From Adenophora triphylla var. japonica (Eukaryota; Streptophyta; Magnoliopsida; Asterales; Campanulaceae), in assembly GCA_022495995.1 (NCBI GenBank), contig JAFEMH010001471.1:248001-312000 (forward strand): DNA of 64,000 nucleotides. The letters run 5' to 3'. A program made the position numbers and the translations under genes. Positions 27,601 through 51,994 of the stretch are shown piece after piece. Under the pieces are notes generated by a model. That model was not told where the DNA came from, ran no database searches, and was given only the letters and a program-made list of their open reading frames with translations. Positions within the stretch are counted from its first letter, which is position 1. Each line of letters begins with the position of its first letter.

Positions 27601-27995
27601 AATAAGGGTTTTTAGCCACAGTAGTCGGATCGTGGTAAATAGAGATAAAACTGTGGCTAATAGTATTTATCACTGTTTTGTCACGTTTTTATGTCCGATG
27701 CTTTTGTGAGCGTCGCTTATACTGTTCTACAGTTTCTAAACCGTGACAAATAGTATTTGCTACGGTTATGGTCACGGTTAAAAACCGTAATACAATTAGT
27801 ATGATATATGTTATTTTTTTTTATTTATCACGGTTGTTGTGACATTTAAAAACGGTGCAATTTTTAATACTTGTGACAATTTAGAACCGTCATAGAAGTT
27901 ATGTGCGACATATAAATTATTATTTGTATGTGCGACATATAAATTATTAACGTGGCAAATGATACCATAATGTGTGTTTTTATATTTGTAACACA
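27601..27995. repeat. Left subterminal repeats of CACTA-1
   Basis: Repeated direct and inverted words around CCGTGACAAATAGTATTT and GTCACGGTT. The matching set is at 51838-51985. Such subterminal repeats are transposase-binding sites in characterised CACTA elements; here that role is inferred. Confidence 0.7.
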
Positions 27996-28742: not shown

Positions 28743-28774
28743 CACTACAAGAAAGTTGGTTATTGGGCAACACG

Positions 28775-29175
28775 CGACCGCCGTATATAGTTATTATATA
28801 CGACGGATAAACGAAGCCGCCGTATATAGTTGGTTATATACGGCGGTATGCTATATCCGCCGTAAATATAAAGAATATATACGGCGGTATGCTATATCCG
28901 CCGTAAATATAAAGAGCATATACAGCGGTATGCTATATCCGCCGTTTATATAAGTTATATACGGCGGTCACATGGAGGCGTCGTATATACTTATATACGT
29001 ACATCGTATAAAATTGACATATACCGACCTTATATCGTAGTTATATACGGCGGTTGACAAGTAGCCGCCATATATATTAGTTATATACGGCGAAAAACAC
29101 GGAGCCACCGTAAATAGAGACTTATATACGGCGACATATACGTAAACCGCCGTATATATTAATATATACCGCGTA
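28775..29175. repeat. Left subterminal array of CACTA-2
   Basis: More than ten direct and inverted copies of TATATACGGCGG or its complement CCGCCGTATATA, often paired as small palindromes. One unit of about 54 bp is repeated in tandem at 28845-28930. Confidence 0.9.
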
Positions 29176-30559
29176 AAATAAATTTCCCCAAAATTCCCTC
29201 TCTATTCTATTGTTCCCGCAAAAATTCCCAAAACCTTACCTAGGTTTGATTCTCAATCGACGGTGAAGAACGCAGCTCCAATGAAGAACCCAGCTCCGGT
29301 GAAGACGGTTGCAGATCTGAAAACTATTAGCTTCGCCCTGAAGACCTGCCGCCGGTGACCATTGAAGGTATGTGAATATTTGCTCACTCTTGGTGTGTAG
29401 CTACTCATTTTGACCTTTTGTTGAATATTTGCTCATATTCAACAGGTTTGATTATCAATCGCCCTATTTTGTGACGTCGATCTCTGAGCCGGCATCCGAC
29501 CAAATTCCAGGTTAGTCTACCTCTTTCTCTTGAAAATTTTGAAGATATTTTTTAATCATTTTCCGGTTGAGTGGTTTGGTGGTAATTTTGACTGATGTTG
29601 TTATATTTTGTTGTTGGTGTTGTCCTAGTTATGTGAAACTTTTGAAATTTGCAAAATGCATTGCAAATTATGTGCCTCCGACAGATTTAAGTTTAATTAA
29701 CATATTTAAGGTTAATTACTGTATAAGCAGATGAGAGGTTAATTAACAGATCTAGTTTAACAAGTTTAACTAATTTGACTTTCTAAATTTGTTTCTGTTT
29801 GGTGTGCTTTTTACAGATTTACAGAAATAATATTTGGAAATTTTGCTAATCTAGGTTTTTCCTTCTTGGTTGGCTATCATTTCCTTCGTTATTTGCTACT
29901 CAATGTTTCCTTCAGAGTGAATTGTGTGATAGAATTGTGCTTTTTGAGATTTTGTATTATGTGCTTAGTGGATACATGTTAATTTTGGTGGTTGTTTATT
30001 AGTTCATATGTGAAGAGTTTGATATAGACCGTAGGTAGAGTTTTGAATTTATTTCAATGTCCAGAAATTGTCTTAGCCCTCTTTCTGCTCTAGTTCAGTC
30101 GCTTCCAACAATAGTAATTAATATGAACATAATAAAAGTAAGCAGATCAATTAAGCAAAAAGTGATAGTCTTTAACCCCACCCTGCATCGCCTCATTCAT
30201 AATGTATCATCATGTTTCTCTGTTCATTTCATATTGATTTACTTTCTATTCAATTTCATAATCCCAGTGATTCAGTTTCTATATATATATAGGTTGAGAA
30301 AAAAGCTTAGGTATCTTGGATCAACACATTACTTTATGAGAAAAAAGCTTAGGTATCTTGAATCAACTAATTTGTGTCTCTCGGTCTTATATATAGGTTG
30401 TATTTTAACGTTAAAAATATCAAATCATATATGGACAAAAGTTGGATTGATTTGGGTAACCGGATTTCAAATGAGTATATGTCTGGGATTGACAACTTCC
30501 TCATCTTTGCATTCTCAAAAAATTCTCTTGGTGCTAAAGAAATATATTGTCCTTGAAAA
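29176..30559 (+). other. 5' untranslated and intron region of CACTA-2
   Basis: No convincing coding exon. A 174-codon open frame at 30057-30581 has no family character and is interrupted where real tnp2 coding begins. A short direct repeat (AAAAAGCTTAGGTATCTTG) occurs at about 30300 and 30341. Confidence 0.55.
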
Positions 30560-32823
30560 AAATGCTCAAATCGTTACCTAAAAGACCGTGCAACCGTGAA
30601 ATCACATTGTATTGAAGTGGGATTTGAAACAGCTTACAAGAATTGGACTAGGTATGGGGAAGAGTACATTTCGTCGTATAAGAATGATAATAATGATAGG
30701 ACAACTGAAGATGGCATTGAAATTGACTTGGGCGTGCAAGATTGTATGAGGCAAATTGTACATGAAGGGATGGGTATGCCGGATAGTAACTAGCCAGGAA
30801 TTGAAGAAATCGTACAATCAGATGCAGCCACTGCAAAGTTTCTTAAGTTTTTGAGAGATTCTGATCAAGCCTTGTGGGAAGGGTGTGATAAGTTTACAGT
30901 ACTCTCATTTATTGCAGAACTTATGCACTGGAAGGCTAATTATCGAGTGACCGATAAGGGATTTACTTCTTTATTAAAGATTTTCATTAGGGCATTGCCT
31001 CAGTCAGCAAAAGTGTCAAATTTATATCGTGAGGTGTACAAGATGGCTGCAGATTTGGGTTTCAGTTATAAAACATGGGATACGTGCATTAATCATTATA
31101 TGTTGTTTCGAAATAAAACTGAAAAACTTACTAAATGTGAAATTTGTGGAGCCTCAAGATATAAGCAACAAGAAGAAGGGGGTAGCGGTGAAGGTGCGAA
31201 AACAAGTGGGAATAATAAACTTTCCAAGCAGGTAGCGATGGAGAAAGTATGGTATTTTCCCTTGAAGCCAAGGTTGCAAAGGTTGTATTGGTCATCTAAG
31301 ACCGCGACACTCATGAGATTGCATGCAAAGAAAAGAATAGACGATGGTGTGCTGAGACATCCTACAGACTCTCGTGCGTGGAAGGGATTTGATGAACGTT
31401 ATCCATTATTTTCAAGTGAAATTCGGAATGTTAGATTGGGATTAGCATCTGATGAATTTAATCCTTTCAAAACAATGACTATATCTCACAGTACTTGGCC
31501 GATTGTGCTTATGCCATACAATCTTCCACCTTGGTTATGCATGAAACAACCATATTTTTTCTTGTCGATGCTTACTCAAGGCCCAAAAGGGCCTGGCAAC
31601 AAGATAGATGTGTATCTCCAACCGTTAATTGATGAGTTGAAGGAATTGTGGGAAGATGGTATATCAACTTATGATGCATCAAGGAACGAGTTGTTCACTT
31701 TACGAGCTTCACTATTATGGACAATAAATGACTTCCTGCATATGCAATGTTGTCTGGATGGAGCACTAAAGGTGAATATGCTTGCCCTTGTTGCAATGTG
31801 AGACCTCAAGCACGATGGTTGGAACATGGTGGCAAGTATTGTTATATTGGTCATCGACGCTTCTTGCCTAGGAGTCATGCTTTTCGTAAGGATAAAATCT
31901 CTTTTGATGGTACTCATGAAGTGAGAGATAAGCCAAAGTTATTGTTTGGAATAAAATTGCTTAAACAAGTTGAAATATGGAAACAGAGTATAAATTAGAA
32001 GATGTTTTTAAAAAGAGGAAAAGAGAAGAGGGGGAGAAGCAACAAGCCAAGTTGGAGAAGAGAAAGGTTCCTAAGTTGTGTCACAATTGGAAAAAGAGGA
32101 GTATCTTCTTTGAGTTGTCATATTGGGCAAATAATAATGTTCGTCATGATCTTGATGTTATGCACATTGAAAAAAATGTGTGTGATAATGTTCTACATAC
32201 TCTGTTAGGTACTGCGGAGAAATCAAAAGATAATGAGAAATCAAGAAGAGACCTAAAAGAGATGAACATTCGGAAACCATTGCATCTACAAATGCTTCCA
32301 TCTCGCAAAGAAATTATGCCTCCGGCTCAGTTCACAATGAGTAAGAAGCATAAAGACACATTCTTGAAAGTTTTAAAGGGAGTCAAAGTCCCTGATAGCT
32401 ACTCGATAGTCATATTTTGCTCCAACAACTACTCCCCTTAGCTGTTCGAAAAACATTGCCTACTTTTGTTGTAAAAGCCATCATTGAGTTGACAAATTTC
32501 TTTAGGCAACTATCCTCAAAGGTGAATACATTTGCTGATCTCGAAAAGATACAAGATCAGATGGCTGTCACACTATGCGCTCTCGAGAAAATATTCCCAC
32601 CAGCTTTCTTTGATGTTATGGAGCACTTGCCGGTGCATTTAGCCGAGGAGGCCTTGCTAGCAGGCCCAATACAATTTCGTTGGATGTATCTGGTAGAGAG
32701 GTACATCCATATTAAATTTATTTTGAAAAAAGTTAAATTCCTTTTTACATCTGGTTTAGCACAAGTAAATGTTTTTGTAGGTTTCTACTTACATTAAAAT
32801 TATATGTTCGAAATCGAGCCCAC

Positions 32824-33909
32824 TGTTAGTACCCGTCCGAAAAAAGGCATTTTAAATGTTTGGCCCGGTTAATATTAAAGAAACCCTAAAAATCCCTTAA
32901 TCCCTTCATCCGTACCTGCGCCGTCATTGCTGCGTGGAAAGTACGCCAGATCAAAGTGCCGATCGGCCTTTTACCCGTGGTATGGCCGATCGACCCTTTT
33001 ATTTTGTGCCGATCGTACCTAGCATCCTTGTGCCGATCGACCCTTTGTTTTGAGCCGATCGACCCTTTATTTTAAGGCCGATCGACCCTTGCTCTGGCCC
33101 AGCCCAGATACCGAAGCACTATAAATAAGTGTGCCCGGCTCCCATTCTAGACACAAATTACTCGGGAGAAACGAGACTACTCTTGTTTTACCCACAGTTC
33201 TTTTTACTCTCTTCGAATCGCCCTAGATTCGACCCCAAAGTCTTGCTACAATTGGTAAGACTCTTTTTAATATTTTTGTTCCCTATTATTATTATTGTCT
33301 TATTATATTTGCATGCTTATTATATTTTAATTGTTCCTTTATGCTAGATTTAGGACTGTTTTAATATATTTAAATATGCAATAGCCGAGGATGATCTAAG
33401 GTTTCGCCCAAGGAACCCAATGGATCTAGGAACTATTTCTTACCTTCCACCTTAGTTATAATTATCCCATGATCAACAATGCCCCAAGGATGAACGTTGA
33501 TTAGTGCACCTTCCGAGGGCCTAACTCAAAGGTTCTAGGGTGTGATCATCAATTAATTCTTTCTCTCCCCTCCTCCTTATGCATGATCCCGTTTCTTCTA
33601 TCTATTCCTGTAAACACCGCACACAACCAACACCCCACATGCTAGAAAGACCGATCCGTCGGGCAATAGGAGTGATAGCGTTTCTTCTTACGGTTGTAAC
33701 TTGACCCCAGAACCCAATTAACTGTTTAGCCTTTTTTCAAAGCTTTGGGCTATATCAAAGTGGCGTGGCGACTCTCAAAATTTAAATTAATATTTTTAAT
33801 ATGGTTTAAAGCGAGTGTCACTAAATGAATATCCCATTTCGGTCCGACATTATATGATTAATTATTTCAAACCTCCGAATGCGCGTTGCATCGGGACGGG
33901 GTATTCACA
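32824..33909 (+). repeat. 5' LTR of gypsy C
   Basis: Starts TGTTAGTACCC, ends GGGGTATTCACA. It contains six GCCGATCG-type words between about 32968 and 33088, TATAAATA at 33120-33127 and GTGGCGTGGCGACTCTC near 33762. Confidence 0.95.
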
Positions 33910-33910
33910 G

Positions 33911-33928
33911 TGGCGACTCTGCTGGGGA
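33911..33928 (+). other. Primer binding site of gypsy C
   Basis: TGGCGACTCTGCTGGGGA, one base after the 5' LTR. It is of the Tat/Ogre type, considered complementary to a tRNA-Arg 3' end. Confidence 0.85.
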
Positions 33929-34643
33929 TTGTTTTGAAATTTTTTCAAACTAAGTGGGTCAGACTTTCGTTTTCTTGTGTGGTGTTGTATTTTACTTCCT
34001 TTTTCTTTTTCTCCTATTCTTAACTGTTGCATTGCATGCATGCATCTCATAAAAAAAAAATCTTTCTCTTTTTCCCTTAAAAAAGAATTAGACTTTTTAC
34101 CTCACACTACCACTAGAGTCCGTGTCACACTGCACAGACACCCTTTAACCCATCGGAGAAGCCAAAGTGCGGGAAGCGTGGTGATCATGTCGCCTCCCTT
34201 CCGAGTCTCACTTGGTCATCCACTCATCAGTGCGCTTCGGCTGCACGGTGGGAGCCTGAAATCTAACCCTTGTGTCACCCACTTTGTTAAGAGTACACTC
34301 CCTGTGACCGGTTGGTTTGACTAGCTTTTTTATATAGACAATTAATAAGGTCTTTGTGTTAAGTCACTACGAATCAATAATAGGTCAAGATCTATAGAGA
34401 GAATAAAGGGCACTAAAAATTGATTTCCTTTTAAAGGACGTGCCATGTAAAGTTGAATGCTTGATCTTGTCCTATCATGGGTCTATAGTACTCTCCATAA
34501 ATATCATATTAAATGTCTATATGAGACGGTTAATCGTTAGGATCCACCACTTTAGGACCTTTAGTTAGTTGCGAAAAAGGGGTATCCCTTCCAACCAAGA
34601 GTAGGTTCTATAAAAAAAAATAAAGGGCTTTTTTGTAAATAAA
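33929..34643 (+). other. Leader of gypsy C
   Basis: Untranslated leader. It resembles the leader of Tat-like element 2 (GGGTCAGACTTTCGTTTT; a CACAC-rich segment). No gene is seen. Confidence 0.6.
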
Positions 34644-34649
34644 ATGCTT

Positions 34650-35640
34650 AACCACTCCTCATTTTTAGGACCTTCCGAGGTCCACTCTTCATTTTTAGGA
34701 CCTTCCGAGGTCCGCTCCTCATTTTTAGGACCCTCCGAGGTCCGCTCCTCATTTTTAGGACCCTCCGAGGTCCGCTCCTCATTTTTAGGACCCTCCGAGG
34801 TCCGCTCCTCATTTTTAGGACCCTCCGAGGTCCGCTCCTCATTTTTAGGACCCTTCGAGGTTCACTCCTCATTTTTAGGACCTTCCGAGGTCCGCTCCTC
34901 ACTTCTAAGACCCTCCGAGGTCCGCTCTTCATTTCTAGGACCCTCCGAGGTCCGCTCTTCATTTCTAGGACCCTCCGAGGTCCGCTCTTCATTTCTAGGA
35001 CCCTCCGAGGTCCGCTCTCCATTTCTAGGACCCTCCGAGGTCCGCTCTTCATTTCTAGGACCCTCCGAGGTCCGCTCTTCATTTCTAGGACCCTCCGAGG
35101 TCCGCTCTTCATTTCTAGGACCCTTCGAGGTCCGCTCGGAGGGTCCGCTCTTCATTTCTAGGACCCTCCGAGGTCCGCTCTTCATTTTTAGGACCCTCCG
35201 AGGTCCACTCTCCATTTCTAGGACCCTCCGAGGTCCACTCTCCATTTCTAGGACCCTCCGAGGTCCACTCCTCATCCCTAGGACCCTCCGAGGTCCACTC
35301 TCCATTTCTAGGACCCTCCGAGGTCCACTCCTCATCCCTTGGACCCTTCAAGGTCCACACCCTCTACTACGGATCGCCCTAGGTCCAGTCTCTCTATCTT
35401 GGACCGTTCAAGGTCCACTCTTTGACCCTTCGTTGTGCTCTTCCTATACTAAGTCCACTCTCCCAATCTTAGAACATTCAAGGTCCACTCCTCAATTTAG
35501 GACCCTTCGAGGTCCACTCTCTCTATCTAGGACCATTAAAGGTCCACCCTTCCACCTGAGACTCTTCGAGGTCCACTCTCGTCTCTTGGACCATCCATGG
35601 TCCACTCCTCTACCTTAGACCCCCATGGTCTACAAGTTAG
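34650..35640. repeat. Tandem array 1 of gypsy C (30 bp unit)
   Basis: About 23 near-perfect 30 bp units (core TTAGGACCCTCCGAGGTCCG plus CTCCTCATTT) run to about 35350, then decaying units (GGTCCACTC) to about 35640. Each unit contains the near-palindrome GGACCCTCCGAGGTCC. The long open frames here exist because 30 is a multiple of three. Confidence 0.95.
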
Positions 35641-35951
35641 GACCCTTCGAAGTTCTACCTCTCATCTCTTAAACCATCCATAGTTTAGATCCTTTATCTC
35701 TAGCACCCTTCAGCCAAAGACCAACCAAGGCCAATCCTCACCCAAGACCAAATTAACTCACCTAGATCACCCTCATTTGACCAAGGATCGAGTCATCTTC
35801 CTCTCCCTTTTTCACCAAACGGACTCTTTTACATTCATCCTCTCTCTTTCTCTAAACTTAACCCTGGTTGTATCATCAATCGGGGCCCCCTCGAACTACG
35901 GTGACCTGAGACTCGTATCTTAAATGGTAAGGGTTACGTAGGCAACTTCAA

Positions 35952-36608
35952 ATGGCCAAACTCAAAATTGTGGAGGTCAAATATTTTCTCAAGGATGCCT
36001 TAAGATTAATTATGAATCTAATTCAACTCATTGGTTTGACTCCGCCATATGTTCTTACAGAATTCCACATCATGTCTCTGGAGAAAAGCATTGAAGCCCT
36101 CAAAGAAGTCTCAAACATGAGGTTGGGAGTGATCAACCTCCTCAAAGACATGCATGGAATTGAGCAGCATCATTTGTCCTACATCCAAGAATACTTGAGA
36201 AGAGTTCCTCCTCCTGTTCAATTCCAGGGTCCCTACCATTCGCATGCTTATGGTTCCCCTTATGGTCCTACACATCAGAATTTCTCATTCAGGATGCCTG
36301 CTGTGACCACCAACCAACGAAAGGCACCAATACCCGAGAAGAAGATCAACAAGGAACATTTTGATGACTTAGGAATGCCTGTGGGTGAGTTCTTCGACAT
36401 TTTGGTGGAAAAGAGTTTGATCAAGCCGCTCGAGAATTACAAGCCTGTTAATCCGAAAACTAACTTGGATACATCCAAGTTTTGCAAATACCACAAGTAC
36501 ATTGGGCATACCACTGACAACTGTAAGCAGCTGAAACGCTTGATTCAAAATTTGATCAACCAAGGCCTCATTGATGAAGAAGCCCTCGTACTTCAAGGAA
36601 GGATTTAG
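35952..36608 (+). CDS. Gag-like ORF of gypsy C, 218 aa, with zinc knuckle
   Basis: ATG at 35952, TAG at 36606-36608. The N-terminal half has helical character (EKSIEALKEVSNMRLGVINL), the middle is Pro/Tyr/His-rich (VPPPVQFQGPYHSHAYG), and the C-terminal part has CKYHKYIGHTTDNC, a CX2HX4HX4C knuckle typical of Tat-type gag, followed by LKRLIQNLINQGLI. Gag proteins form the retrotransposon particle and bind its RNA. The ORF is intact but short; the usual N-terminal capsid part is not visible, so it may be a C-terminal gag segment. No pol follows. Confidence 0.75.
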   Translation: MAKLKIVEVKYFLKDALRLIMNLIQLIGLTPPYVLTEFHIMSLEKSIEALKEVSNMRLGVINLLKDMHGIEQHHLSYIQEYLRRVPPPVQFQGPYHSHAYGSPYGPTHQNFSFRMPAVTTNQRKAPIPEKKINKEHFDDLGMPVGEFFDILVEKSLIKPLENYKPVNPKTNLDTSKFCKYHKYIGHTTDNCKQLKRLIQNLINQGLIDEEALVLQGRI

Positions 36609-39520
36609 ATTCATTCAGTCTTGTAGGTTCTAGTGTGTCTTTCTTACTTCCACTTTGGGCATTGGTTTGTAATGTCCACCTTTGAACTAGTTACTTCGAT
36701 AATAAAAAAGGTCTTTCTTTCTTTTCTCTCTAGACTTGAGACATAATCTCGCATTACTTTCAAGAAGATTGTTTTATTTATAATTATCACTTGGTTGCTA
36801 ATCTCACTGATAAACTCACCGGCTAATAAAGTAAACAATGAATGAATGCTTTGATTGGAGTAAACAACTCACCGTTCCTTCTTCATATACACCATCCCTA
36901 TACACCCCTCTCTCATACACTCTCTCCATACTCCACCATATACTTTTCATACACTCCTTGTACATACCCGTTATACCGTCTCAAACATACACTTCCCCAA
37001 AAACACTCTCCCCCGCTTGACCTCCTTTCCATATGATCAAGACAAGCACAAAGACCGTTGTTGCTCATCATCAGAAAATAGCTGCTCACGCCACTGCAAT
37101 TTAAAGAAGATGCAAGGAGTTGTTCCTATCCTTCACAAGTGCTGCATGAATATCAACTTGGGGCTCACCAACCCCCCAATCTCGCGTCTCCTCTGATTTT
37201 CCATTCGATCGATAAGCTTTCATTGAATATGCTCACATATCTTTCTCATGGTCTGAATATATTTTGCCTTACATTAATAAGTCGGTTAAATGAGTTTGCA
37301 TTTATTTTAAAAAATACTCTTTTGAGAATGCTATCCAGTAGCAATTGAAGCTTAAACCTCTCACCATAGGAAGCCATAACCTTATCCTCACTAAATAATA
37401 CCCTTTCATTTCAAGATCGACAAGTTTTGAGACCCTAAGGAAGAAGCCCATACTAGGGGCTCCCTCGACTCACAAAGGAAGTAATCACCTCAAAGCTCAA
37501 GAAAGGCGGAATGCGAAAGAAACTCATACAAGGGGCTCCCTCGAAGGGACTACCTCCAAGCCCAAGAGGGAAAAGGTAAAACCATCCCAAGGCATACACT
37601 AGGGGCTATCGCGAGCAAACAAATCCGAAGGCTTTTCTCGATAAGAGGGTGTTAAAAAAAAAAAAAAAAAAAAAACAACTTCATCACCCCGAAGTGAACC
37701 TCCCATCTCAAAGGTTGTGAAAACGAGACATCGAGTGAAGGTCCTATCGTGATCAAGTTACCTGCTGAAATCACAACAAACTCGCAAGAAGAAGCAACAA
37801 AAATTCCCTCTTGGACAAATCCCGTAAACCAATTCCAAAGTCCATCCTCTCACTTTTAGAGGATTCCATCACCACCCTTGACCTTATCAAAATCAAAGTT
37901 AACCTCACTCTTAGAGGTTCTGAAGAAGCAACAACAAGAAAATCCCCTCACCTTAGAAATTCCAAACACATCCCTCAAGCCAACCTCTCAGCAAAAGGCC
38001 CAGCCGACCTCTCACTTTAAGAGGTCATGTTAATCATCACCTAATGATCGATCGTAATCCAAAGCCCAGCTACAACCGCTACCGGATGGCATTCTCAAAA
38101 GATTATTTAAAAGAAATGCATATTCAGATTTTTGAGTCACTTGTTATCCTACGTGAGCATATTACATATTCTCTCAAAAGTTTGGGAACTCGTCCTATTC
38201 TTGAAATTCGTTCATTCGACTCCTCAAACACTGTCTGCAAAAGTCTCACTGGGGCTTCGCATCCGTGCCTCTCAGCGGCACTCCGGTAAAAGCAAGGAGA
38301 CGCGTGCCAGGGACTACTCCCCTCGGCTTGTGAGAACAAAGGAGCAACGAATCTTGAATTGAAAGACAGAAAAATAGAAGGGGCCATAATCAGTCAATTC
38401 CCACCTTTTCTTCCACCCCAATCTTTTTTCTATTTTTCATTCTATTTTTCGATCAATGTAGCGGCAGCCCGCACCACAATTATCACAATCAGCCCAGAGC
38501 AGCAAGCAACAACGGAACATCCTACTCCTTCTAAAGACAAGCCCAATTCCAGCTTCTAATCAAAACAGTCATTATTTGTTTACTCATATAATTGGAATTT
38601 GATAAACCAATCAGTGAGGTCCATTCACGAGCAATCAAAATATAATTCTGAATCAAACAATTCTTCAAATGTCTCGACAAGTCTTCTTCTCTACAATCTA
38701 GGAAGAGCCAAACACTGTCTTTCTGTCAGCAGGGGCTTCCATACACTTTTCCACACCTTGTGATGCTTACACTCTCCCAAAAGAGTCAAACCCAAAAGCG
38801 AAAGTGTCATACACGAATTCGGGATCCATTCCCACCTTCGAAAAATGTGCCCCTGCACATATACATTTCCGATTCTTGTCCGGCGATTGACCTTTGTTCG
38901 AAACGAGGATCGCCCGTGGCCACAAGATGACTCTCGTCCGCAATAGGGACACATTGAATCTCTCCAAGCCGGGGCTTTTGCTAAGCTGTTCTCTCAGGCT
39001 CTCTTTACCAGATTCCCTTCAGGCTTGCTTTGCATCATCAACTGGGGCTTCGCCATTCCCTTCAGGTTTGCTTTGCATTATCGACTGGGGCTTCGCCAAG
39101 GTCACTTCATCAAACAGTGGGGCTCCCCTCAACAAAAATGGGTCGACTATGTGGTTCTTCAGAAAAGGCCAAAGGGCTCTAATCGAGGCTCCGACGAAGT
39201 CATGTCTAGCAAGAAGGGCATCCCTTGTCATCAAGATCAGCATGTGGCAAACTCTTTGAGTCAGTTAGAAATATAATTGATCATAAGGCCTCCTTATCAA
39301 AGTAACATGCTTTCAAAATGCTATCCTCTTTGGCACCTTGTTTACAAAATCACTCTTTGGTCTCCACAAATTTTCAAACTCTTCAAGTCTATCAAAAACG
39401 CCTCTCTCTCAAGATGACTCGGTCCTTATCTCTGGACATCAAACTTACCTAATCCCATCTTCTCGGCCTCGCCTAGTTTAAACCATAACCTTTCTGCTCA
39501 AACTGCCTTGTCCAGACTTA
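36609..39520 (+). other. Non-coding interior of gypsy C in place of pol
   Basis: 2.9 kb where pol would lie. Only short unconvincing frames occur. It contains an A-run (37649-37672), recurring GGGGCTCCCTCGA words and a repeated CTTCAGGCTTGCTTTGCAT segment near 39017-39075. Confidence 0.65.
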
Positions 39521-39524
39521 CCAC

Positions 39525-40160
39525 AAATGTAAAACCCTAGCTCCAAGCCTAGGTAACAAATACATTTCTAAACCCTAGTCTCAAGCCTAGGTGACAAATC
39601 TCCTTTCTAAATCCTAGCCTCAAGCCTAGGTGACAAATCTCCTCTCTAAACCCTAGCCTCAAGCCTAGATGACAAAAAATACCTTTCAAAACCCTAACCT
39701 CAAGTCTAGGTGACAAAAATCTTTCTAAACCCTAGCCTCAAGCAAGCCTAGGTGACAAATACCTCTCTAAACCCTAGCCTCAAGCCTAGATGACAAATAC
39801 CTTTCAAAACCCTAACCTCAAGTCTAGGTGACAAAAATCTTTCTAAACCCTAGCCTCAAGCCTAGATGACAAAAAATACCTTTCAAAACCCTAACCTCAA
39901 GTCTAGGTGACAAAAATCTTTCTAAACCCTAGCCTCAAGCAAGCCTAGGTGACAAATACCTCTCTAAACCCTAGCCTCAAGCCTAGATGACAAATACCTT
40001 TCAAAACCCTAACCTCAAGTCTAGGTGACAAAAATCTTTCTAAACCCTAGCCTCAAGCAAGCCTAGGTGACAAATACCTCTCTAAACCCTAGCCTCAAGC
40101 CTAGATGACAAATACCTCTCTAAACCCTAGCCTTAAGCCTAGGAGACAAGACTCCTCTCT
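39525..40160. repeat. Tandem array 2 of gypsy C (~30-32 bp unit)
   Basis: About 19 units with the core AAACCCTAGCCTCAAGCCTA followed by GGTGACAAAT. Variants form a higher-order pattern of several units that itself repeats (for example 39661-39845, 39846-39975, 39976-40100). Confidence 0.93.
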
Positions 40161-40289
40161 AAGTCTTAGCAATGATCATCCCAAATTTTTAATCGCTTGG
40201 TTCTTCGGCTCGGGAAGCCATAGTAATCCCAATCAATTCACACAGCTATTCCTCATTAGTGGCCTAAGTCCTCCGGCAGCCACGAATCC

Positions 40290-40965
40290 AATTTTTCACA
40301 AGGGGTGACTCCCGCAGAAGTCAAAATTTTCACAAGGGGTGACTCCCGCAGAAGTCAAACTCTCACAAATCTTTGGGTGACTCCCGCATCAAATCTGGGT
40401 GACTCCCCGGGTGACTCAAATCTTTGGGTGACTCCCGGACAGTCAAATCTTTGGGTGACTCCCAAATCTGGGTGACTGTACAAATCTTTGGGTGACTCGG
40501 ACAAATAAATCTTTGGGTGACTCCCGTACACCAAATCTTTGGGTGACTCCTGATCAAATCTTTGGGTGACTCCCGTACAATAAATCTTTGGGTGACTCCC
40601 GTCTGATCAAATCTTTGGGTGACTCCCAGGACAAGTCAAATCTTTGGGTGACTCCCCGTCTGATCAAATCTTTGGGTGACTCCCGTACGATCAAATCTTT
40701 GGGTGACTCCCGGACGATCAAATCTTTGGGTGACTCCCCGTCTGATCAAATCTTTGGGTGACTCCCGTACAGTCAAATCTTTGGGTGACTCCCCGGACAG
40801 TCAAATCTTTGGGTGACTCCCCGGACAGTCAAATCTTTGGGTGACTCCCCGGACAGTCAAATCTTTGGGTGACTCCCCGGACAGTCAAATCTTTGGGTGA
40901 CTCCCCGTACAGTCAAATCTTTGGGTGACTCCCCGTACAGTCAAATCCTTTGGTGACTCCCGTGC
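40290..40965. repeat. Tandem array 3 of gypsy C (~20-25 bp unit)
   Basis: About 27 units of AAATCTTTGGGTGACTCCCG joined by short variable linkers (TACAGTC, GATC, GACAGTC). It lies just upstream of the 3' LTR and polypurine tract. Confidence 0.93.
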
Positions 40966-41240
40966 AGTCACGTATCCTTGACGCCACACGTCCGCCACTC
41001 TCGGGTATTAAACGCCCACTCTTTTGAACTAAGATTTGGCTTGATTCCTCTTGGGATACGTAGGTAGCCCGACGTGGGTCCAGCCGCTCGACCTACCTGG
41101 TCATCCTTTTGCGACTCAGCTCGAGTCCAAACCTCACATCCGCAAGATCATCGTTTCACCTCCTGAAATCCCTTTTTTCAGGACGGATCCTATTTTTTTT
41201 TTTTTTTATCGTCGACCCCACTCGTCTTACAAGAAGCGTC

Positions 41241-41253
41241 GCCGAGGGGCTAC
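41241..41253 (+). other. Polypurine tract of gypsy C
   Basis: GCCGAGGGGCTAC directly before the 3' LTR. Element 3 has the same GCCGAGGGGCT core before its LTR, so the two are related. Confidence 0.75.
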
Positions 41254-42339
41254 TGTTAGTACCCGGTCCGAAAAAAGGCATTTTAAATGTTTGGCCCGGT
41301 TAATATTAAAGAAACCCTAAAAATCCCTTAATCCCTTCATCCGTACCTGCGCCGTCATTCTTTGCGTGGAAAGTACGCTGATCAAAGTGCCGATCGGCCT
41401 TTTACCCGTGGTATGGCCGATCGACCCTTTTATTTTGTGCCGATCGTACCTAGCATCCTTGTGCCGATCGACCCTTTGTTTTGAGCCGATCGACCCTTTA
41501 TTTTAAGGCCGATCGACCCTTGCTCTGGCCCAGCCCAGATACCGAAGCACTATAAATAAGTGTGCCCGGCTCCCATTCTAGACACAAATTACTCGGGAGA
41601 AACGAGACTACTCTTGTTTTACCCACAGTTCTTTTTACTCTCTTCGAATTGCCCTAGATTCGACCCCAAAGTCTTGCTACAATTGGTAAGACTCTTTTTA
41701 ATATTTTTGTTCCCTATTATTATTATTGTCTTATTATATTTGCATGCTTATTATATTTTAATTGTTCCTTTATGCTAGATTTAGGACTGTTTTAATATAT
41801 TTAAATATGCAATAGCCGAGGATGATCTAAGGTTTCGCCCAAGGAACCCAATGGATCTAGGAACTATTTCTTACCTTCCACCTTAGTTATAATTATCCCA
41901 TGATCAACAATGCCCCAAGGATGAACGTTGATTAGTGCACCTTCCGAGGGCCTAACTCAAAGGTTCTAGGGTGTGATCATCAATTAATTCTTTCTCTCCC
42001 CTCCTCCTTATGCATGATCCCGTTTCTTCTATCTATTCCTGTAAACACCGCACACAACCAACACCCCACATGCTAGAAAGACCGATCCGTCGGGCAATAG
42101 GAGTGATAGCGTTTCTTCTTCTGTTGTAACTTGACCCCCGAACCCAATTAACTGTTTAGCCTTTTTTCAAAGCTTTGGGCTATATCAAAGTGGCGTGGCG
42201 ACTCTCAAAATTTAAATTAATATTTTTAATATGGTTTAAAGCGAGTGTCACTAAATGAATATCCCATTTCGGTCCGACATTATATGATTAATTATTTCAA
42301 ACCTCCGAATGCGCGTTGCATCGGGACGGGGTATTCACA
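41254..42339 (+). repeat. 3' LTR of gypsy C
   Basis: 1086 bp, nearly identical to 32824-33909. Visible differences include an extra g near the start, changes at the GCTGCGTGG and GCCAGATC sites, one C/T change in TTCGAATCGCCC, and a small block near 42120. Confidence 0.95.
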
Positions 42340-44399
42340 CCCACCCCGAGGCCTCCATAGCTAAGGCAATTGTGGCTGAAGAATGCATGACTTTTTTTTT
42401 GTACACAATATTTGAATGACATTGAGACAAAGTCCAATCGTCCTAGAAGAAATGATGATGAAGGTGACGAGTTAGGCCGCTTTGTAGGAAAGAAGAGGAA
42501 ATTACCCTTGATTACATCACACGAGTACAAGCGCATAGATATGTGCTTTTCAATACTAAAGATGTTGAACAATACCTAGAGTAAGTGATTCCTTACTTGA
42601 GGCTTACATTCCTTATATCTTTTATATTTTAAATTAATACTTAATTCATATTTCCAATATGCTCATAATGCATCGTGCACATTTGAGGGAGACACTACCT
42701 CGTAATCAATGACATCTTATAGAGAAAGAACATAATGATAAGTTTGTTAGCTGGTTTAAAGATTATGTAAGTATGAAACCACTTTCATATGATACTTTTT
42801 TTATTGTTATAAATATTTTCTTATTAAATTTTGTTTTTTATAAAAGGTATGTATGACGAAAGATGCAGTGCCCAAAAGAATTAAAAGTCTTGCATTGGGT
42901 CCTCATATGGATGCGAGGCGGTTTAAGTTTTACATAATAAATGGTTTTCGATTTCGAGTGAAGGATGTCGATAGATGGAGGAAAACCCAAAATAGTGGAG
43001 TCATGCTAAATGCAAGTGTGACAAATTTTGCAAGCCGAAAGGATAATAATCCAATTATAGGGGATGTTAACTTCTATTGGGAGTTGATTGAGATCCTTGG
43101 AATTCGTTATAGCAACTCAATAAGATTTGTATTGTTCAAATGTGAGTGGGTTGATAACCGGACAGGCAAGATGGAAGATGAGCAAAAATTTACTCTTGTA
43201 AACTTCAATCACAAGTTGTATAAGGATAATCGAGTTGGTGATGAACCATTCATATTAGCATCTCAAGCTGAGCAAGTTTGGTATGTTAAAGATCATATAG
43301 AAAGTGATTGGAAAGTTGTGATGAGGATTACACCAAGAGATAGTTTTGACATATATTCAAATGATGATAAACAAGTTTCAGATTCGATTCCACAACTGGT
43401 ATCATTTTGCTCACAAGATCTGGATGAAAATGTTACTAACGAAGAAGCATCGTGGGTGTGAGAGGGAGTTGATGGGGTCGAGATTGAAACTACTAATATC
43501 AATGATGATGATGTTGATATGGCCGATAATGATGATGATTAGTTTGAGTATTATTTGTTTAGATCTCATTTGCTTACTATTACTAAGACAATGTTATGAC
43601 TTATGTTTCATGTTTCAATCAAACTTGTTATTTTGTATGGTTGAATATTAATATTGTTAATTGTAATATGTATTTGTTTAGATCTTATTTGTTTACTATT
43701 ACTAAGACAATTTTATTACTTATGTTTCATGTTTCAATCAAACTTGTTATTTTGTATGGTTGAATATTAATATTGTTACTTGTAATATGTATTTGTTTAG
43801 ATCTCATTTGCTTACTATGCAATTTTACTCACATTTTTTATTATGACTTTGTAATATGTATTTTTATGTTTCTTATATTTTTTAGCCAGATATGCCGCCA
43901 AGGAAGCAAATAGGTGAGGTCTCATCAAGAAAAGGAAGAGGGTTGACAAAAAAAAAACAAAGAAATGGGGTAAAGAAAAGCTTAATGTCATATTTAATGA
44001 ATTTGGACAACCCTGTGGTGGCGAAAGTGCTCAACTAGCTACTCGGCTCGGGTATTTTGTGAGAAATGGGGAAAATTTCTCATTAACTAAAGATTGGTAT
44101 GAGATGGAACGTACAGTTCTAGAGAACATATGGAAAGATGTTCAAGTAAGTTGTAATCCATATTTCTTACATAAATCTCATGTTTACTTGATTATTTTTT
44201 CTTAGCTTTAGTTTTGTATTCTAGTAACTCTAGACGTGGCCGGTTCGGTTTAACCGCCGGTTCACGGTTAAAAACCGGCGGTTTCAACCTTGGAAAAACC
44301 TCAATCGGAACCGAACCGGATAACCGGATAAACCGGTTACGATTTGACGGTTATACGGTTTTAACGATTTTCCGATTAACCTCTGATTTATTCGGTTTG

Positions 44400-44580
44400 A
44401 ATCTGCTCGGCCGAGTCTTTGGTGTTGCTCGGTCAAGCATACCCTTTTAGGGTTTTGGGGTTGAGGGTTGCTCGGCCGAGTCATATATACTGCTCGGTCG
44501 AGCATACCCTTCAAAAAAATGTCAACTTTCTGTTCTCATATGCTCGGTCGAGTCTATAGTAGTGCTCGACCGAACATATC
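44400..44580. repeat. CTCGGCCGAG-type subterminal repeats of the hAT element, left
   Basis: Six copies or near-copies of GCTCGGCCGAG or GCTCGGTCGAG occur within 180 bp. The right-end set is at 47668-47785 (four or more). Paired subterminal palindromes fit transposase-binding sites. Confidence 0.75.
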
Positions 44581-45122
44581 ATTTTTCAACCTTGTAACAG
44601 TTAATTTTTTAACAGTTTTCGTTAACTTTGTATGTAGTATATCAACTTTATTTTTTTTTGGATAAAGATAACTAATTGAGATGTTGTTTAGTCCTAAATT
44701 TTTTTAGAAAAAGTTATATAAAAAAAGTTAAGAATTTTTAAAGATAAGAAAACAATTATCTTTTTAACAGTTTTCGTTAACTTGTATATAGTATATTAAC
44801 TTCTTTATTTTTTCAATTTTTTTTTGGATAAAGAAACGTATTTGAGATGTTGTTTTGTCCTGAAATTTTTTACAAAAAATTATACAAAAAAAATTAAGAT
44901 TTTTTAAATAAATAAAAGTAAATAAAAAAGGGACGGTACCCTTAAATTTTATTAATTAAAATAAAATTACAAAGAGGGAGACAACCAACCTTACCCTTTT
45001 ATAAATAAGGGGAGACATTTAGGAGCCTTTACCTCAACCTAACTATTACAATTAAATAAAAATAAACCTAATCTAAAGTCTAAACTAATCTAATTAAAAT
45101 AAAAATTAATCTAAAACATCAT

Positions 45123-47333
45123 TCATTCATCACTACTTTTCGTGGAGTCCTCGACATCGTATTGATATCTTGGATCCAATAGATCCTCATCATAAGGCAA
45201 GTCTTGTTGCCTTTTTTCCGCTCTAACCCAATCGCCAAGTAAAAGTTGATGTTTCAAGTTTTCACTTGTTTGTTGGGAACGTCTTTCATCCAAAACATTT
45301 CCACCAACGCTAAATGCCGATTCAACCGCCACCGTTGAAGCGGGAGAGGCTAAGACTTTTTTAGCAACTATGGAAAGTATAGGATAAATGTCTTCCCTTC
45401 TTGACCACCATTGTAAAATATCAAATTCATTTGAATTTGAGTCTTGGTTTAATTCAAAGTTTGTAGTGAAATAAGTTTCTAACTCCAAGGGAATGTTTGA
45501 TGATGATGAAGATGAACCTCGAGAAGGACCATATTTTACATACAAATTTGCAAAAAAAACTATATGAATCCCCACTAGTAAAACTTGGTTGAGAAATAGA
45601 GGAATCATCTTCATGTTGTTGGCTTTGAGAAGTGTTTTCATATAAGGCATTATACTCATTAAAAAGGTTAATCAAATTATTTTTTGTGTCATTAACAATA
45701 ATTGACGGAAGTTCATTACTACCGTCACCATCGGGATATAATTTCATATAATAATAAGTTATAATGGACTCTAAATCATCTAATTTAACTCGAGAATCTA
45801 ATAACTTTGCAACCAAGAAAAGAGATTGAATAGTGTCAAAATATTTAAGCCACTTTTGTCTCATGTTAAAAATGCATTCTTTTAAAATAGGGCATTCTTT
45901 TAAATTGTCAAAAATAGTAACAATTGCAACACAATGCTCTAGCACCAAAACGAAAGTTGGATAATAAACTTCCGAAAAAGCCAAAGTAGCGGTATTAAAA
46001 ATCTTTAACAATTCACATAAATTAATGCATGCATTCCAATGATAAGTAAATAGAGGTTCATGATAGCCAATTGACATAAAAAATTGCGTTAGGAGATCTT
46101 TATAAGCAAAATTATCGGTTAACATTTTGTAGGTGATATTCCACCTAGTTGGAACATCGTAAGTAAAATATTTGTTCGTCACACTTTTACTTCTTAAAAA
46201 CCTTATCTATTTTTTTGTATTAGAATTTTTTTTGAAATAAATTGAAGAGCTCGTCTAATTGGCTTAATATAAGTTTTTAATGCATCTAAATCATCTCTAA
46301 CACATAAATTAATTATATGACATAAACATCTAATATGAAAAAACTTACCCCCAAGTGAGGGTTGACAAACGGTAATTAAATCAGGTAAACTAACCGTATT
46401 AGCACTTGCGTTGTCAAATGAAATAGTAAATATTTTATTTAAAATACCATGCTCAAGAAAAATCTCAAGCAATTTCACACAAATATTTTTCGCGAAATGC
46501 GGTGGCTCAAAATCTTTGTAAGCAATTAATCTTTTTTGAATTTTCCATGAATTATCTATCCAATGACAAGTAACGCCCAAATAAGTATTTCTTTGCCAAT
46601 GATCACTCCAACCATCGGCACAAATTGAAACTTTATTTTCTAATTTTGATAAAATACCAATTAAACCTTTTTTATATTTTTGAACCACTCTAGCAATATC
46701 ACGTACGAGATTCGTACGTGGTACTCTCGTGGCGGCGAAATTTAAAGAAAGGTGAGCAAAATTTTCATAAAAATCACAATCCGCAAAATTAAAAGGTAGG
46801 CCTTTAACGCAAATAAATTTGGCTAGTTCATCCCTATAAACCCACCTATCAAATTTAAATAGGACGGAAGAAGGGGAAGACGAACCTTGTGCACCCGAAC
46901 CCGAACTACGTTGTTGAAATTGTAATTGAGTTTGCGTAGCGGAAATGCCAAGTTTCTAGAGATGTTTTGACGCCGTATGCCCGTTGAGCCTCCCATACCC
47001 TCCGCCTCTTTTGAATGAGTAAGACGTGGTACAATAGTTGCAAAATTCTCGAAGATTATAATCATCATCGGCATTAATTTTTCTTTTGGTGAAATGGATG
47101 GCGAAGGTATCGGATTGCGGCGCTCTTTCTGTAGGAGGTTGTCGTTGTCCCCGACCACCTCCCCTAGTAGCTCGGCTTCCCCTACCCCTCCTAGCACTAC
47201 CACTTTCAATTTCAACTTGTTCTTCTTTCTCATTTTGTTGAATATTTGGATTTTGATGATCAAAATCATCGTTGGGGGAGGAAGAACCAATATGTGACTT
47301 GCCTAAATTGCTTCTTCTTTGATTTCCAGCCAT
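45123..47333 (-). pseudogene. hAT transposase (BED finger, RNase H fold, hAT dimerisation), nearly intact but frameshifted
   Basis: Start ATG at 47331-47333 (MAGNQRRS). The N-terminus is a Gly/Arg-rich region, then a BED-type zinc finger in CNYCTTSYSFKRGGGYGRLNGHTASKHL order (C-x2-C...H-x4-H). The central part has ADGWSD...YLGVTCHWID and FTISFDNASAN, core hAT blocks, and VPTRWNITYKML. The C-terminus is the dimerisation domain: WWSRREDIYPILSIVAKKVLASPASTVAVESAFSVGG, ending at 45123. The pieces are open but fall in different frames, with breaks near 46950, 46690, 46195 and 45560, several at A/T runs. About 700 codons in all, normal for hAT. Probably inactive. Confidence 0.88.
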
Positions 47334-47667
47334 TTGTGTAAGATAAAATGAACTTTGGAACGGAACGGAGCTTAAAAATGGATGAAAATGAAGAAAAGCA
47401 CTAATTTCGTTAGAAAACTAACTGAAAATGGGACAATATTTAACTGAAAATTGGATGAGAGTGAGAGTATATGTGAATATTTGAGAGTAGAAGAGAAAGA
47501 GTAGAGAGAAATAATGTGGAAATAAAATGGGTGGAGGAAGATGATATTTATAGTTAGTAAATTAGGTAAAAAAAACTTTTTTTTAAATTTTTGTCAGCCC
47601 CCATTTAAAGTTCTGACGAACATAACGGCTAGTTTGTAAAAGTAGCCGTTGGAATGGGTTCTGGCGT

Positions 47668-47785
47668 TCTGCTCGGCCGAGCAACTCATATGACTCGGGC
47701 GAGCATGACCGTTATTGGAAATTTACACACTGGAAATGACCCCCTCGGCCGAGCAACTCATATGGCTCGGCCGAGCAACTCATAA
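47668..47785. repeat. CTCGGCCGAG-type subterminal repeats of the hAT element, right
   Basis: Copies of CTCGGCCGAGCAACTCATAT are repeated, with one variant GACTCGGGCGAG. Matches the left-end set. Confidence 0.75.
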
Positions 47786-48245
47786 AACCGGCGGGTAACC
47801 GGCGGGTAACCGGTTTTTCAAAAAGGCAAACCTTAACCGAACCTCCCATTTACCGGTTTCGGATAGCCGATTCCGTTTAACCAGCGTTGACCGGTTTTGA
47901 CCGGTTGAAAACTGTCCGGTTGACCGGTCCGGTTTATAAAATGGCCACGTCTACTAGTAAGTAGTCAAAAGTCTTATGATTCTCTAGCAATTGTTCTTTT
48001 CTTTGTTGAATTGTATATAGGACAAGGTCTTACCAAATCTAGGGTGTTTGGTAAAGCCTCAACATCTCAAAGTGATGCAGTCTGTGCACTTGAGTAGAAA
48101 GTTTCATCCATGGAAGTTGATTTTGAAAGGCGTCAAGAGGCCCAACGAGCAGAATTTGCAAAGCAACTTGAGGCTCAACAAAAAATGATAGAAGCTTTGC
48201 AACGTAATTATATGCAACAACATGGAAATGGCAATAATGGGCTGT

Positions 48246-48672
48246 GGTATGTTTTCTTAATCCTATAAATCTAATATCACTGGTTGTTGACTCATAATTC
48301 ATTTGTCTAATTTAATTAGAATTCTTGTTGAATTGGGTCATGCTACAATGGAACCTGCCATATCAAGTTTGAACCACTAGAGAGACAGATCCTTTTCAAT
48401 TTCTTCTGGTCACATTTATGTTTGTTGTTTATTCTAGTGGCTGTTTACTTGCTCCCATTTTCATTTCCATTTCTTTATACTGCAATCTGTTTGTTAATCT
48501 GAAAATAGAAAGAAAAAACCCTGGAAAGAAAGAACACATCTACAAACTTGTATTGGGTCAATTTCACTTGCCCAGTCTGTTTGTAGCTTAGTATTATTAA
48601 ATAATGTGGAGACAGTAGAAAGTATCAATCCGTTTGTCTTGGGCCTCTTGGTAGTAGAGGTTTATGTACTCA

Positions 48673-48717
<45 letters not shown>

Positions 48718-49400
48718 GTAGTAATAGTAGAAGGTGGATATCGAAGACGATCTTGTCCATGTTTTCTTTCAATGAATTATGTAATTAAACATCGTAAATC
48801 TTTATTCTCTTTAATGTATCTTATTCTATCTACAGTCTTTTCATACAACCTGTGTGCAGAGACAATAGTATGTAGTTGTTTAGCATCTTTCTGACATTTT
48901 CCTTTAACTATACCTTCTTTATGAGCAGATATGGTGGAGGCATGAGTTCAGCCAAGGCCGCTTTGGAGAGTGATACAAAGGTAACATGTTCTTAGATTAT
49001 ACTCCCTCCGTTCCAAATTAAATGTTGCACCTATTTATTTCATAAGTACTGATCTGAGGTAATTCATCTAACAGAGGAGGTGGGAAATGCTGCGGCTTAT
49101 CTGGCATCACCATTGGCTTCAGCAATAACCGGAACAGTCTTGTAATTTATAAAACATAAGTACAATCTTTTTGTTATTGGTTAGATTTTATGGCATGAGA
49201 CATGGATGGACCTATTGGTGCTCAATGCTATTACATGTATTTTATATGTAGTGTATTTAGTTTTTGACAATTGCAAATGGGCTATCCCTTATTGGCCCTG
49301 TTTTGGATTCCTGCTGATTTTCCAGCTTGTGCTCTATGTTGTTTCTGCTGGTGTATTTTTGGGTAAAACTAATAATACAGGGCTCACTGGGAAGAAAAGT
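48246..49400 (+). other. CACTA-2 3' region: microsatellite, partial MITE end, possible small exons
   Basis: A (CT)n microsatellite lies at 48676-48712. An exon-like piece, GGGMSSAKAALESDTK after an AG acceptor, lies at about 48930-48980 with a GTAAC donor. A Stowaway-type end (CTCCCTCCGTTCC) lies at 48999. A 71-codon hydrophobic frame (49206-49421) is unconvincing. Confidence 0.5.
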
Positions 49401-49404
49401 CTAC

Positions 49405-49915
49405 TTATTTACGGTGGATAAACGAAGCCGCCATAAATAGACTAGTTATTTACGGCGACTTCGTTTATCCACCGTAAATAAGTTCAATGGACGACTCGCC
49501 CCCAAAGGGGGACGAGGTTATCAAAGAGAGTTAAAATGGGGATGATTCATGCTGTGATGGACGAATCGTCTCTTATATACGGCGGCCTAGACCCGCTGTA
49601 ATTATATGTCATTATATACGGCGGTAACCTCAGCGCCGTATAAAACTTTCTCAAATACGGCTGTAATACATATGTCGTATTTGTATTTCATTATATACGG
49701 TGGTACATCAGTCGCCGTATTTGCCCTTGATTATATACGACGGATGTATTTCCGCCGTAAATATTATATACGGCGGTATATTCGCCGTAAATACTATATA
49801 CGTCGCGAATTTATATGCCGCCCAATATACGGTGGTATATCCGCCGTAAATACTATATACGGCGGCCCCGATCACTGTATACGGCGGATTTTAACCGCTG
49901 TAAATAGTGTATTAT
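49405..49915. repeat. Right subterminal array of CACTA-2
   Basis: Dense TATATACGGCGG / CCGCCGTA words in both orientations. At 49411-49475 it contains an inverted pair (GGTGGATAAACGAAG and CTTCGTTTATCCACC) that could form a hairpin. The mirror array is at 28775-29175. Confidence 0.9.
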
Positions 49916-49989
49916 CTTGTAGTGACAGGCTATAATAAACCCTTCTTTCACATAGAAATACAACGGTAGACTGAATCAAACAACTCAGT

Positions 49990-51160
49990 TCCCTCTACCC
50001 CAGACAACTTTACTATAACAACTCAAAATCACGACTATGTCTACCCGTTTCTCTAACACCCTTGCCCTAGCTTCTGCTTCTTCTCGCTTTTCCTCTGCAC
50101 GGCGAAGCTGAAGTGAAAACAGTGATAAGGATATGAACGAAACTAACTCTATTGAGCATGCCTGTTATAGTTGCTTCCAGTTTGATGAGGTCGGGAAAAA
50201 ACAAAAAGAAAATTGTTGCTCATCTTATCTATGACAATATCATTCTCTTCTTGTAGCATATCTAACTGCATGTGACAAGGTTAGTCATCTTATTTATCAG
50301 TTAATAAATGGGAGTGCAAATTCATGAAATTTCAAGCTCGGCCCTTGATACATCGTGACATTATACATTCTTCAGTGGGCTACTATACAAATAAGAAAGC
50401 AAAAATGAGAGCAGAAGAGTTATACTTCATCACGAAGTACATATGCCTCATGCTGATTTCCAGTGTTTTTCATATCAATCCATCCCATATCTGATGGATG
50501 TCTGAAAAAACATGCATATATACTTCATATACTGACATAAGATTACACCATAGCGTTCTTGCAACTTGAAGATACATGCATAAGCTTGCGGACAAGATGA
50601 TGAGAAGGTCAATCAGAAAATATCATGTACGGTGATTGTGGAACATACAAAGGCTATTTTTATTAGCAACTCTATTAGGATATGTATTGTACCTACACGT
50701 TGCTTATCAATATCAACATCAAGAATTACTCTATGTGTAACTTCATGCACCTCTTCCACCTTCAACTCCTTCTGAATTATAATATATTTACTAGAACCAT
50801 GAATTTGTGAGTACTACTGCTGGTGTCATTTTGATACAGTCCAGACACCAATGACATAGTACTGCCAATGAATCATTTGCTCCTTTCAGAATTTGACTAT
50901 CATTAACCATGTTCTTGCAATAACCCTCGTAGCTATATGCAATCTTCCATTTTAAAAATCAATCATTCAATTTGGGATGGAAAGAGTAAGATGTGATAAG
51001 ATTTTAAGAATAAATCCATCAGTTTTTAAGTAAAAGGAAAAATGAGAGAGTTGAGAGTACGTGTCAAAAGTGTACCAAACATGCTAGGTTTGCGACAACT
51101 TCAACAGATCGAGACTTATATCCCAAAGTCTCTACATTTTGGTCGACGCCTGAAAAAAGC
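49990..51160 (-). pseudogene. Exon-like coding traces of CACTA-1
   Basis: On the minus strand, blocks bordered by splice-like signals stay open: about 51060-51145 (GVDQNVETLGYKSRSVEVVANL after TTTTTTCAG), about 50695-50775 (QKELKVEEVHEVTHRVILDVDIDKQR before a GTAGGT donor), about 50430-50520 (HPSDMGWIDMKNTGNQHEAYVLRDE), and about 49985-50112 (LQLRRAEEKREEAEARARV, a coiled coil). I recognise no family. They could be the second gene of CACTA-1 or further captured sequence. Confidence 0.35.
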
Positions 51161-51354
51161 TATATGTAATAATCAAAATAAAACCACACATACCAACAAA
51201 AATAGATGTATATAAGAACGAATCTAAAGGAATTGATAGGGCGACATTAAAAAACCCATATCAATAAACACAACACAGAGAAAACACATAAATTAAAGGT
51301 TCACAAAATTATGATATTTTGACCAAAGTAAACACAAAAATTAAAGGTAAAGTC

Positions 51355-51674
51355 TCAAAATGGTTTGGGATCATTGGAGTTCTTACACAACACAGGGAAA
51401 TTCGTCTTTGTTTTATCTCCACGGAGACTCCAGGCGACGGCATCGTAAGCTCGAGCAGCACCCTCCGCCGAATCGAAAGTACCGAGCCAAACCCTAGTCT
51501 TCTTCCATGGATCTCTAATCTCCACAGCGAACTTACCCATGGTCTTTTTCTAACCCCTCTGAATCTAATCTCTTTCATGAATCCAAATCCATTGTTCGTC
51601 TTTTCGGCCGCCGGTTGTTGATGCGCCATCAACGTTTTCTTGGCGGTGGCCGCGACAGTTATGGCTCTCCGCAT
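51355..51674 (-). pseudogene. AP2/ERF transcription-factor fragment captured in CACTA-1
   Basis: ATG at 51672-51674 (MRRAITVAATAKKT), then [12 protein letters not shown], where the frame breaks, and in the next frame [48 protein letters not shown]. This is one complete ~58-residue AP2/ERF DNA-binding domain of the ERF subfamily (WLGTF and AYD elements, NFP end). The [14 protein letters not shown] form is like group VIII ERFs, which are often repressors with an EAR motif. The break is explained by loss of one G in a TGGGG run near 51541. The frame ends soon after the domain (NDPKPF-stop at 51355-51357), so the normal C-terminal part is missing. It lies between the CACTA-1 coding traces and its right subterminal repeats. 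Domain call strong; capture inferred from position. Confidence 0.88.
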
Positions 51675-51837
51675 AGGCAATTAGAAGGAATAGATAGGGG
51701 AAACGATTTGGATTTGGATTAGGATTTGGATTTAGAGGGATTTTTTGAAGGGAATTTGGAAATTTGGGAGGAGAATTTGGGGAAGGCGCTGGAGTTTTGG
51801 AGTTTGGAATTTTGGAGTAAAAATAAAATTAAAAGAA

Positions 51838-51985
51838 TAGTTAATAGGTAAACCACGGTCAATTCTTAAACCGGTGCAAAAAAAATTTATTTGCTCCGGT
51901 TAAAAAGATCGTGGTTTATAGTAAATTATTTGCCACGGTTAACGGACCGTGACAAATAAAATGTGACAAAAATACCTTTTTTCTT
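51838..51985. repeat. Right subterminal repeats of CACTA-1
   Basis: Words ACCACGGTC, CCGGTGCAAA, CGTGGTTTATAGTAAAT and GCCACGGTTAACGGACCGTGACAAAT mirror those at 27601-27995. Confidence 0.7.
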
Positions 51986-51994
51986 GTAGCGGAA

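Follow-up and report, generated by a model that had tools for sequence, protein, structure and literature searches.

The window, i.e., the whole 64,000-nucleotide stretch of Adenophora triphylla var. japonica DNA that was analysed, contains CACTA-1, which is a non-autonomous Pack-CACTA element. The best reading, and one that we consider very probable, is that this element holds a captured piece of an ERF3-type gene, was moved in trans, and is without ERF protein function. The original prediction that a CACTA element had captured an AP2/ERF domain is borne out by an intact, closely similar ERF gene elsewhere in the genome (L014) and by CACTA copies with the same insert at other loci (L009-L013 and L015-L017). 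The genome search that it had proposed for a parent ERF gene and for sister CACTA inserts found both, and one of the two outcomes that it had named as speaking against capture, the absence of any further ERF copy from the genome, is excluded by the intact L014. The features of the region are collected in Table 1.

Table 1. Features of CACTA-1 and its surroundings in window coordinates
Feature	Position	Strand	Remarks
CACTA-1, whole	27592-51991		TSD GAA/GAA
TSD GAA of CACTA-1, left copy	27589..27591	.	
CACTA-1, left arm (3' side in ERF sense)	27592..28742	-	CACTACAAG end at 27592
TSD ACA of CACTA-2	28740-28742 / 49925-49927		
CACTA-2, different CACTA family, nested in CACTA-1	28743..49924	+	tnp2, DUF4218, DUF4216
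CACTA-1, right arm with ERF piece	49928..51991	-	CGCTACAAG end (reverse complement) at 51991
Second segment of CACTA-1	50773..51389	-	at L023 without ERF, 96-97% identity
Captured ERF3 segment, 307 bp	51394..51700	-	26 bp leader + 281 bp coding; 94.5% to L014; AP2 domain
Frame break in AP2 domain	51536..51538	-	GGG run without one G of GGGG, CATGGGTAAG
Terminal, subterminal and leader block of CACTA-1	51701..51991	-	common to large family
TSD GAA of CACTA-1, right copy	51992..51994	.	

Structure of CACTA-1 and the elements nested in it

The view that the ERF piece lies in a TSD-flanked CACTA element is upheld by the GAA duplication on both sides and by the inverted CACTA ends, one of which carries a single change (CGCTA). 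The probability of one 3-bp TSD match by chance is 0.018, and the two ends, compared with each other, reach a score of 63 that none of 300 shuffled pairs equalled, with a thin margin over the largest shuffle at 62. Subterminal repeats, comprising CACGGT/ACCGTG and motifs of the GTGACAAA type, are present in both ends; these were picked by eye and also occur elsewhere in the window. The terminal block belongs to a large family, with at least 48 match rows in the genome, counting the window, 40 of them long (scored: 40 of 256 candidates). Among these 40 long rows, 38 lie on contigs without any row in the search with the ERF piece, and the window and C3730 (L009) alone lie on contigs matched by it. 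The CACTA end is much commoner in the genome than is the ERF piece.

CACTA-1 is split by CACTA-2, so its own DNA amounts to only about 3.2 kb (3215 bp in total). The tnp2 gene, corresponding to Transposase_21, sits in the nested CACTA-2, outside the DNA of CACTA-1 itself, in which no transposase domain was found among ten short frames scanned. CACTA-1 would have been mobilised in trans by a CACTA transposase. The likeness between the leaders of CACTA-1 and CACTA-2 was equalled by 13 of 500 shuffles and by 9 of 792 tiles, one of the latter being CACTA-2's own. CACTA-2 in turn encloses a likely LTR element, with LTRs at 32822-33909 and 41252-42339 that differ by 6 mismatches over 1086 columns, and this nesting means that CACTA-1 was in place before CACTA-2 and before the LTR element.

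This likely LTR element (32822-42339) has the DUF4218 frame of CACTA-2 on one side and the DUF4216 frame on the other, and CCCAC flanks its TG...CA on both sides. In addition, two minus-strand frames at 45126-46206 within CACTA-2 show hAT transposase domains (the dimerisation region, and an RNase-H-like domain at the cut-off). Direct repeats at 1853-3281 and 8597-10024 are 98.4% identical and are possibly an LTR pair, and self-comparison of the window shows short direct-repeat arrays at 34652-35634, 39532-40162, 40284-40970 and 54659-55442, one of which is open in several frames.

The captured ERF3 piece and its candidate source

From 51674 to 51394 on the minus strand, the window codes for an ERF3-type N-terminus and AP2 domain in two frames, with one G missing between them. 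The piece comprises the end of the 5' leader, the N-terminus and the AP2 domain, stops directly after NFP, and sits immediately inward of the conserved terminal block of the element. The second-half frame alone (51355-51540, minus strand) scores 30.3 bits against Pfam AP2, for which the cut-off is 33.3, and so falls short of it; the two frames joined with X at the break pass it with 42.1 bits. This match across both frames, together with a distance of 317 bp from the ERF start to the element end, agrees with the predicted placement of an AP2/ERF domain and its N-terminal leader (MRRAITVAATAKKT, which is present) near the right end of CACTA-1. The predicted extent of 51355-51674 overlaps the ERF piece, but the true limits are 51394-51700, and the last codons of the former interval belong to the next segment. 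In a protein search, 1751 of 1776 candidates passed and many of the named relatives among the 120 listed were ERF3; a near-identical protein copy was absent from the best 120 listed in each of two such searches.

ERF3-like genes are presumably members of ERF group VIII, for which we take the EAR motif DLNxxP as the group mark. The predicted lack of the ERF C-terminus is confirmed in that the three sense frames of 51360-49928 contain no DLNxxP, with two chance-like LxLxL strings present. The window copy thus has neither an intact AP2 domain nor the C-terminal EAR motif, whereas L014 has both: this gene, on contig C997, has an intact 218-aa open reading frame that encodes an AP2 domain and the motif DLNLPP. 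L014 matches exactly 51700-51394 at 94.5% over 308 columns, the match ending at both limits, and it provides a candidate for the source gene elsewhere that a Pack-CACTA element with host coding DNA calls for. The paralogs L021 and L022 are also intact, at 81%, and L014 aligns with L021 over 1241 bp at 78%; the similarity extends into the flanks on either side of the open reading frame, as it should if these are resident genes. Because the long CACTA-end matches start at 51692-51717 and the gene match starts at 51700, the capture border lies at about 51700.

L014 may not be the donor itself but the nearest gene still present, since the base three positions before the ATG is C in the CACTA copies covering the site and in L018-L020, three repeats that also carry ERF sequence, and G in both L014 and L021. 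This base hints that the donor of the CACTA piece may have been a relative of the L018-L020 copies instead of L014; a grouping of these with the CACTA copies has 70% support in the tree.

Three earlier interpretations of this region were revised. The stretch 51701-51830 is not the ERF gene's own leader, as this block is CACTA family sequence, and ERF homology beyond NFP, for which a likeness of NSNDP to ERF C-terminal parts had been considered, is ruled out by the occurrence of this stretch at L023 without ERF. Missense changes as a mark of decay, a comparison first made against only the best 120 of 1751 protein matches, are partly withdrawn: G72 and D87 are found in L014 as well, and V51, V80, W82 and T89 are absent from it.

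The neighbouring second segment, by its presence at L023, and an eIF3i-like WD40 frame in the sister element L010 (6022-6390), with a counterpart frame in L011, suggest that the CACTA-1 family carries more than one fragment. No CACTA ends were found within the 8.9 kb examined around L023. The L010 frame matches Pfam EIF3I with an E value of 7.3e-9 and 35.6 bits, far below the model cut-off of 200, as is the case for a short piece, and Pfam WD40 with 27.4 bits (cut-off, 27). Its PDB matches are WD40 proteins, among which eIF3 subunit I is included but is not the best. On the minus strand, 50051-50500 has splice-like borders and a coiled-coil look (LDMLQEEND, LRRAEEKREEAEARA) and is possibly a further captured gene; Pfam matches of the minus frames of 50500-50051 were weak and all below cut-off, and a PDB search with one piece was empty.

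Sister elements and alternative readings

Searching the genome (2.48 Gb in 8432 contigs) with 421 bp of the window (51300-51720) produced 39 match rows, the window itself among them. The 20 places examined account for 22 of these rows, counting the window and a second row on C87; the other 17 rows are each at most 170 bases long. Eight of the 20 places (L009-L013 and L015-L017) show the ERF piece linked to the CACTA end that adjoins it in the window, and the corresponding end is CACTACAAG at all eight. Both ends were delimited in L010-L013 and not in L009, L015, L016 or L017. The complete elements L010, L011, L012 and L013, which are 4827, 4820, 4813 and 3441 bp long, respectively, are flanked by matching TSDs in all four cases (TTC, TCT, TTA and GTA). 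As these TSDs differ from one another, the family has transposed with the ERF piece inside.

Over its full length L010 is 98.6% identical to L011 and 96.8% to L012. The right arm of CACTA-1 (51994/51989-50923) is approximately 91% identical to L010-L012, and 28356-27589, or nearly this interval, of its left arm matches the far end of L010-L013. The interiors vary: L010-L012 have lost 6 bases within the AP2 domain, in L013 the ERF piece is missing its first 81 bases and the leader has diverged (73%), and homology of L015-L017 ends at 51408, which marks these three as a second internal arrangement.

An alignment of 15 copies, nine from CACTA elements, the window among them, and six others (L014 and L018-L022), substantiates the predicted loss of one G from a TGGGG run. 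The G is missing from all nine CACTA copies aligned, whereas GGGG is present in all six non-CACTA copies; the frameshift is therefore as old as the family, and the reading frame was already broken when the family spread. Furthermore, a T at column 41 (counted from 0) is shared by the eight CACTA copies covering it and absent from the five others compared, L020 having a gap. The simplest reading of these shared changes would be one captured lineage that then spread. In a maximum-likelihood tree of this segment, which is short, support is low and L020, a non-CACTA copy, falls next to the window copy (34%), so the case for a single origin depends on the shared deletion and the one shared substitution. 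Terminal branches are 0.037 for the window copy and 0.005 for L014. Private substitutions fall at codon positions 1, 2 and 3 in numbers of 20, 11 and 14 (P 0.25 against equality) with no third-position excess, a weak test, because the intact genes L014 and L021 give 8, 11 and 16 and the same P.

Translation from the start codon of the ERF keeps to the ERF frame for 46 residues and then leaves it, and the 61-aa frame that opens at an inner ATG misses the beginning of the DNA-binding domain. Since every CACTA copy aligned has a broken AP2 frame, a function as an ERF protein is unlikely, and the captured piece would yield no working ERF. We propose that adjacent CACTA insertions were mobilised as one unit and so would have taken up the piece by transduplication, and that a single founder copy without the G then spread, its descendants probably drifting and becoming rearranged.

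Any effect of the captured piece would be through RNA, and this is less likely than no effect. An action on the parent ERF gene through small RNAs from the CACTA family is improbable in our estimation. The right arm of the window copy shares 93 21-mers and 84 24-mers with the parent gene, the eight sister loci share 87-133 21-mers with it, and the longest exact run between the window piece and the parent is 86 nt; with such shared 21-mers, small-RNA cross-talk with the parent may in principle occur. However, the hairpin that had been suggested was not found: there are two 12-nt inverted pairs in 51000-52000, and the folding z-scores are -1.07 and -0.01. The observed/expected CpG ratio of the piece is 1.12 (window, 0.73; rest of the CACTA-1 right arm, 0.53), which gives no sign of methylation-driven decay there.

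Pieces of the ERF gene also occur in further repeats with different flanks, corresponding to L014 positions within 4043-4604 (L018-L020), within 4043-4222 (L025, L026 and L028) and at 4146-4272 (L024 and L027). The left borders of these other repeats include TATTATACAATAC, TACAATA and ATCTATATTACAATAGG, which we take to resemble Helitron starts. Mobile DNA of several kinds seems to have acquired parts of this one gene. We give little credence to a broader scheme in which one ERF3-type repressor gene was captured by the CACTA family and by at least two repeat families with Helitron-like starts, possibly from carrier to carrier, and the numerous near-identical pieces jointly feed small RNAs that tune the parent.

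That a resident ERF gene or pseudogene is merely flanked by unrelated CACTA ends is highly improbable. The ends do lie 24.4 kb apart, one reads CGCTA and their likeness barely exceeds that of shuffles, yet the GAA duplications match and the distance is explained by the nested CACTA-2 with its own TSD. Moreover, eight further places show the piece next to the CACTA end that it has here, the homology of L014 stops at 51700 and 51394, and sister elements with the piece inside have their own TSDs. A micro-protein function for the 61-aa truncated AP2 peptide, which starts at the inner ATG (51540) brought into frame by the deletion and is open from ACCATGGGTAAG over 51355-51540, is scarcely credible: retention of the deletion in all nine CACTA copies aligned is predicted by common descent alone, the peptide is without the start of the AP2 domain, third positions show no concentration of private changes, and L010-L012 lack 6 bases of the domain.

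Relation to known systems

The reading of CACTA-1 as a Pack-CACTA element with a captured ERF3 piece makes this locus a well-resolved worked case of capture within one genome, in which a candidate donor gene, the capture borders, daughter elements and a mutation common to the family are all identified. The case suggests that amplification of a captured regulatory domain can still proceed once its frame has been broken, which argues against a benefit at the protein level.

Pack-CACTA elements are already established, as described in PMC8903248; the original report, in Arabidopsis, is that of Catoni et al. 2019, as cited in PMC8903248 and PMC13317346, and the tandem-insertion model of capture is set out in the review PMC13317346. 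Like the elements described in PMC8903248, those found here are non-autonomous, with CACTA ends, host coding pieces, differing interiors and conserved ends. Unlike them, the donor here is an ERF3-type gene, the frameshift is common to all copies aligned, and the route of capture is a proposed one.

In soybean Tgm-Express1, five fragments in a CACTA-type element are spliced into transcripts, according to PMC1947982. This element resembles the present one in being of the CACTA type with several unrelated host gene fragments. Splicing into transcripts has been demonstrated for Tgm-Express1, whereas CACTA-1 is known here from its DNA sequence.

Finally, PMC8978399 describes CACTA-like elements from three Chenopodium species whose 5' region holds an AP2 fragment of 80 bp, likewise a piece of an AP2-family gene near one CACTA end in several copies. 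In comparison, the piece in Adenophora is 307 bp long, contains the leader and nearly the whole AP2 domain, is of the ERF3 type, and lies in an element without a transposase; we do not claim that these are the same event. Gene capture at this locus is of a known kind, and an AP2 fragment captured in CACTA elements has already been published, in the account given in PMC8978399.
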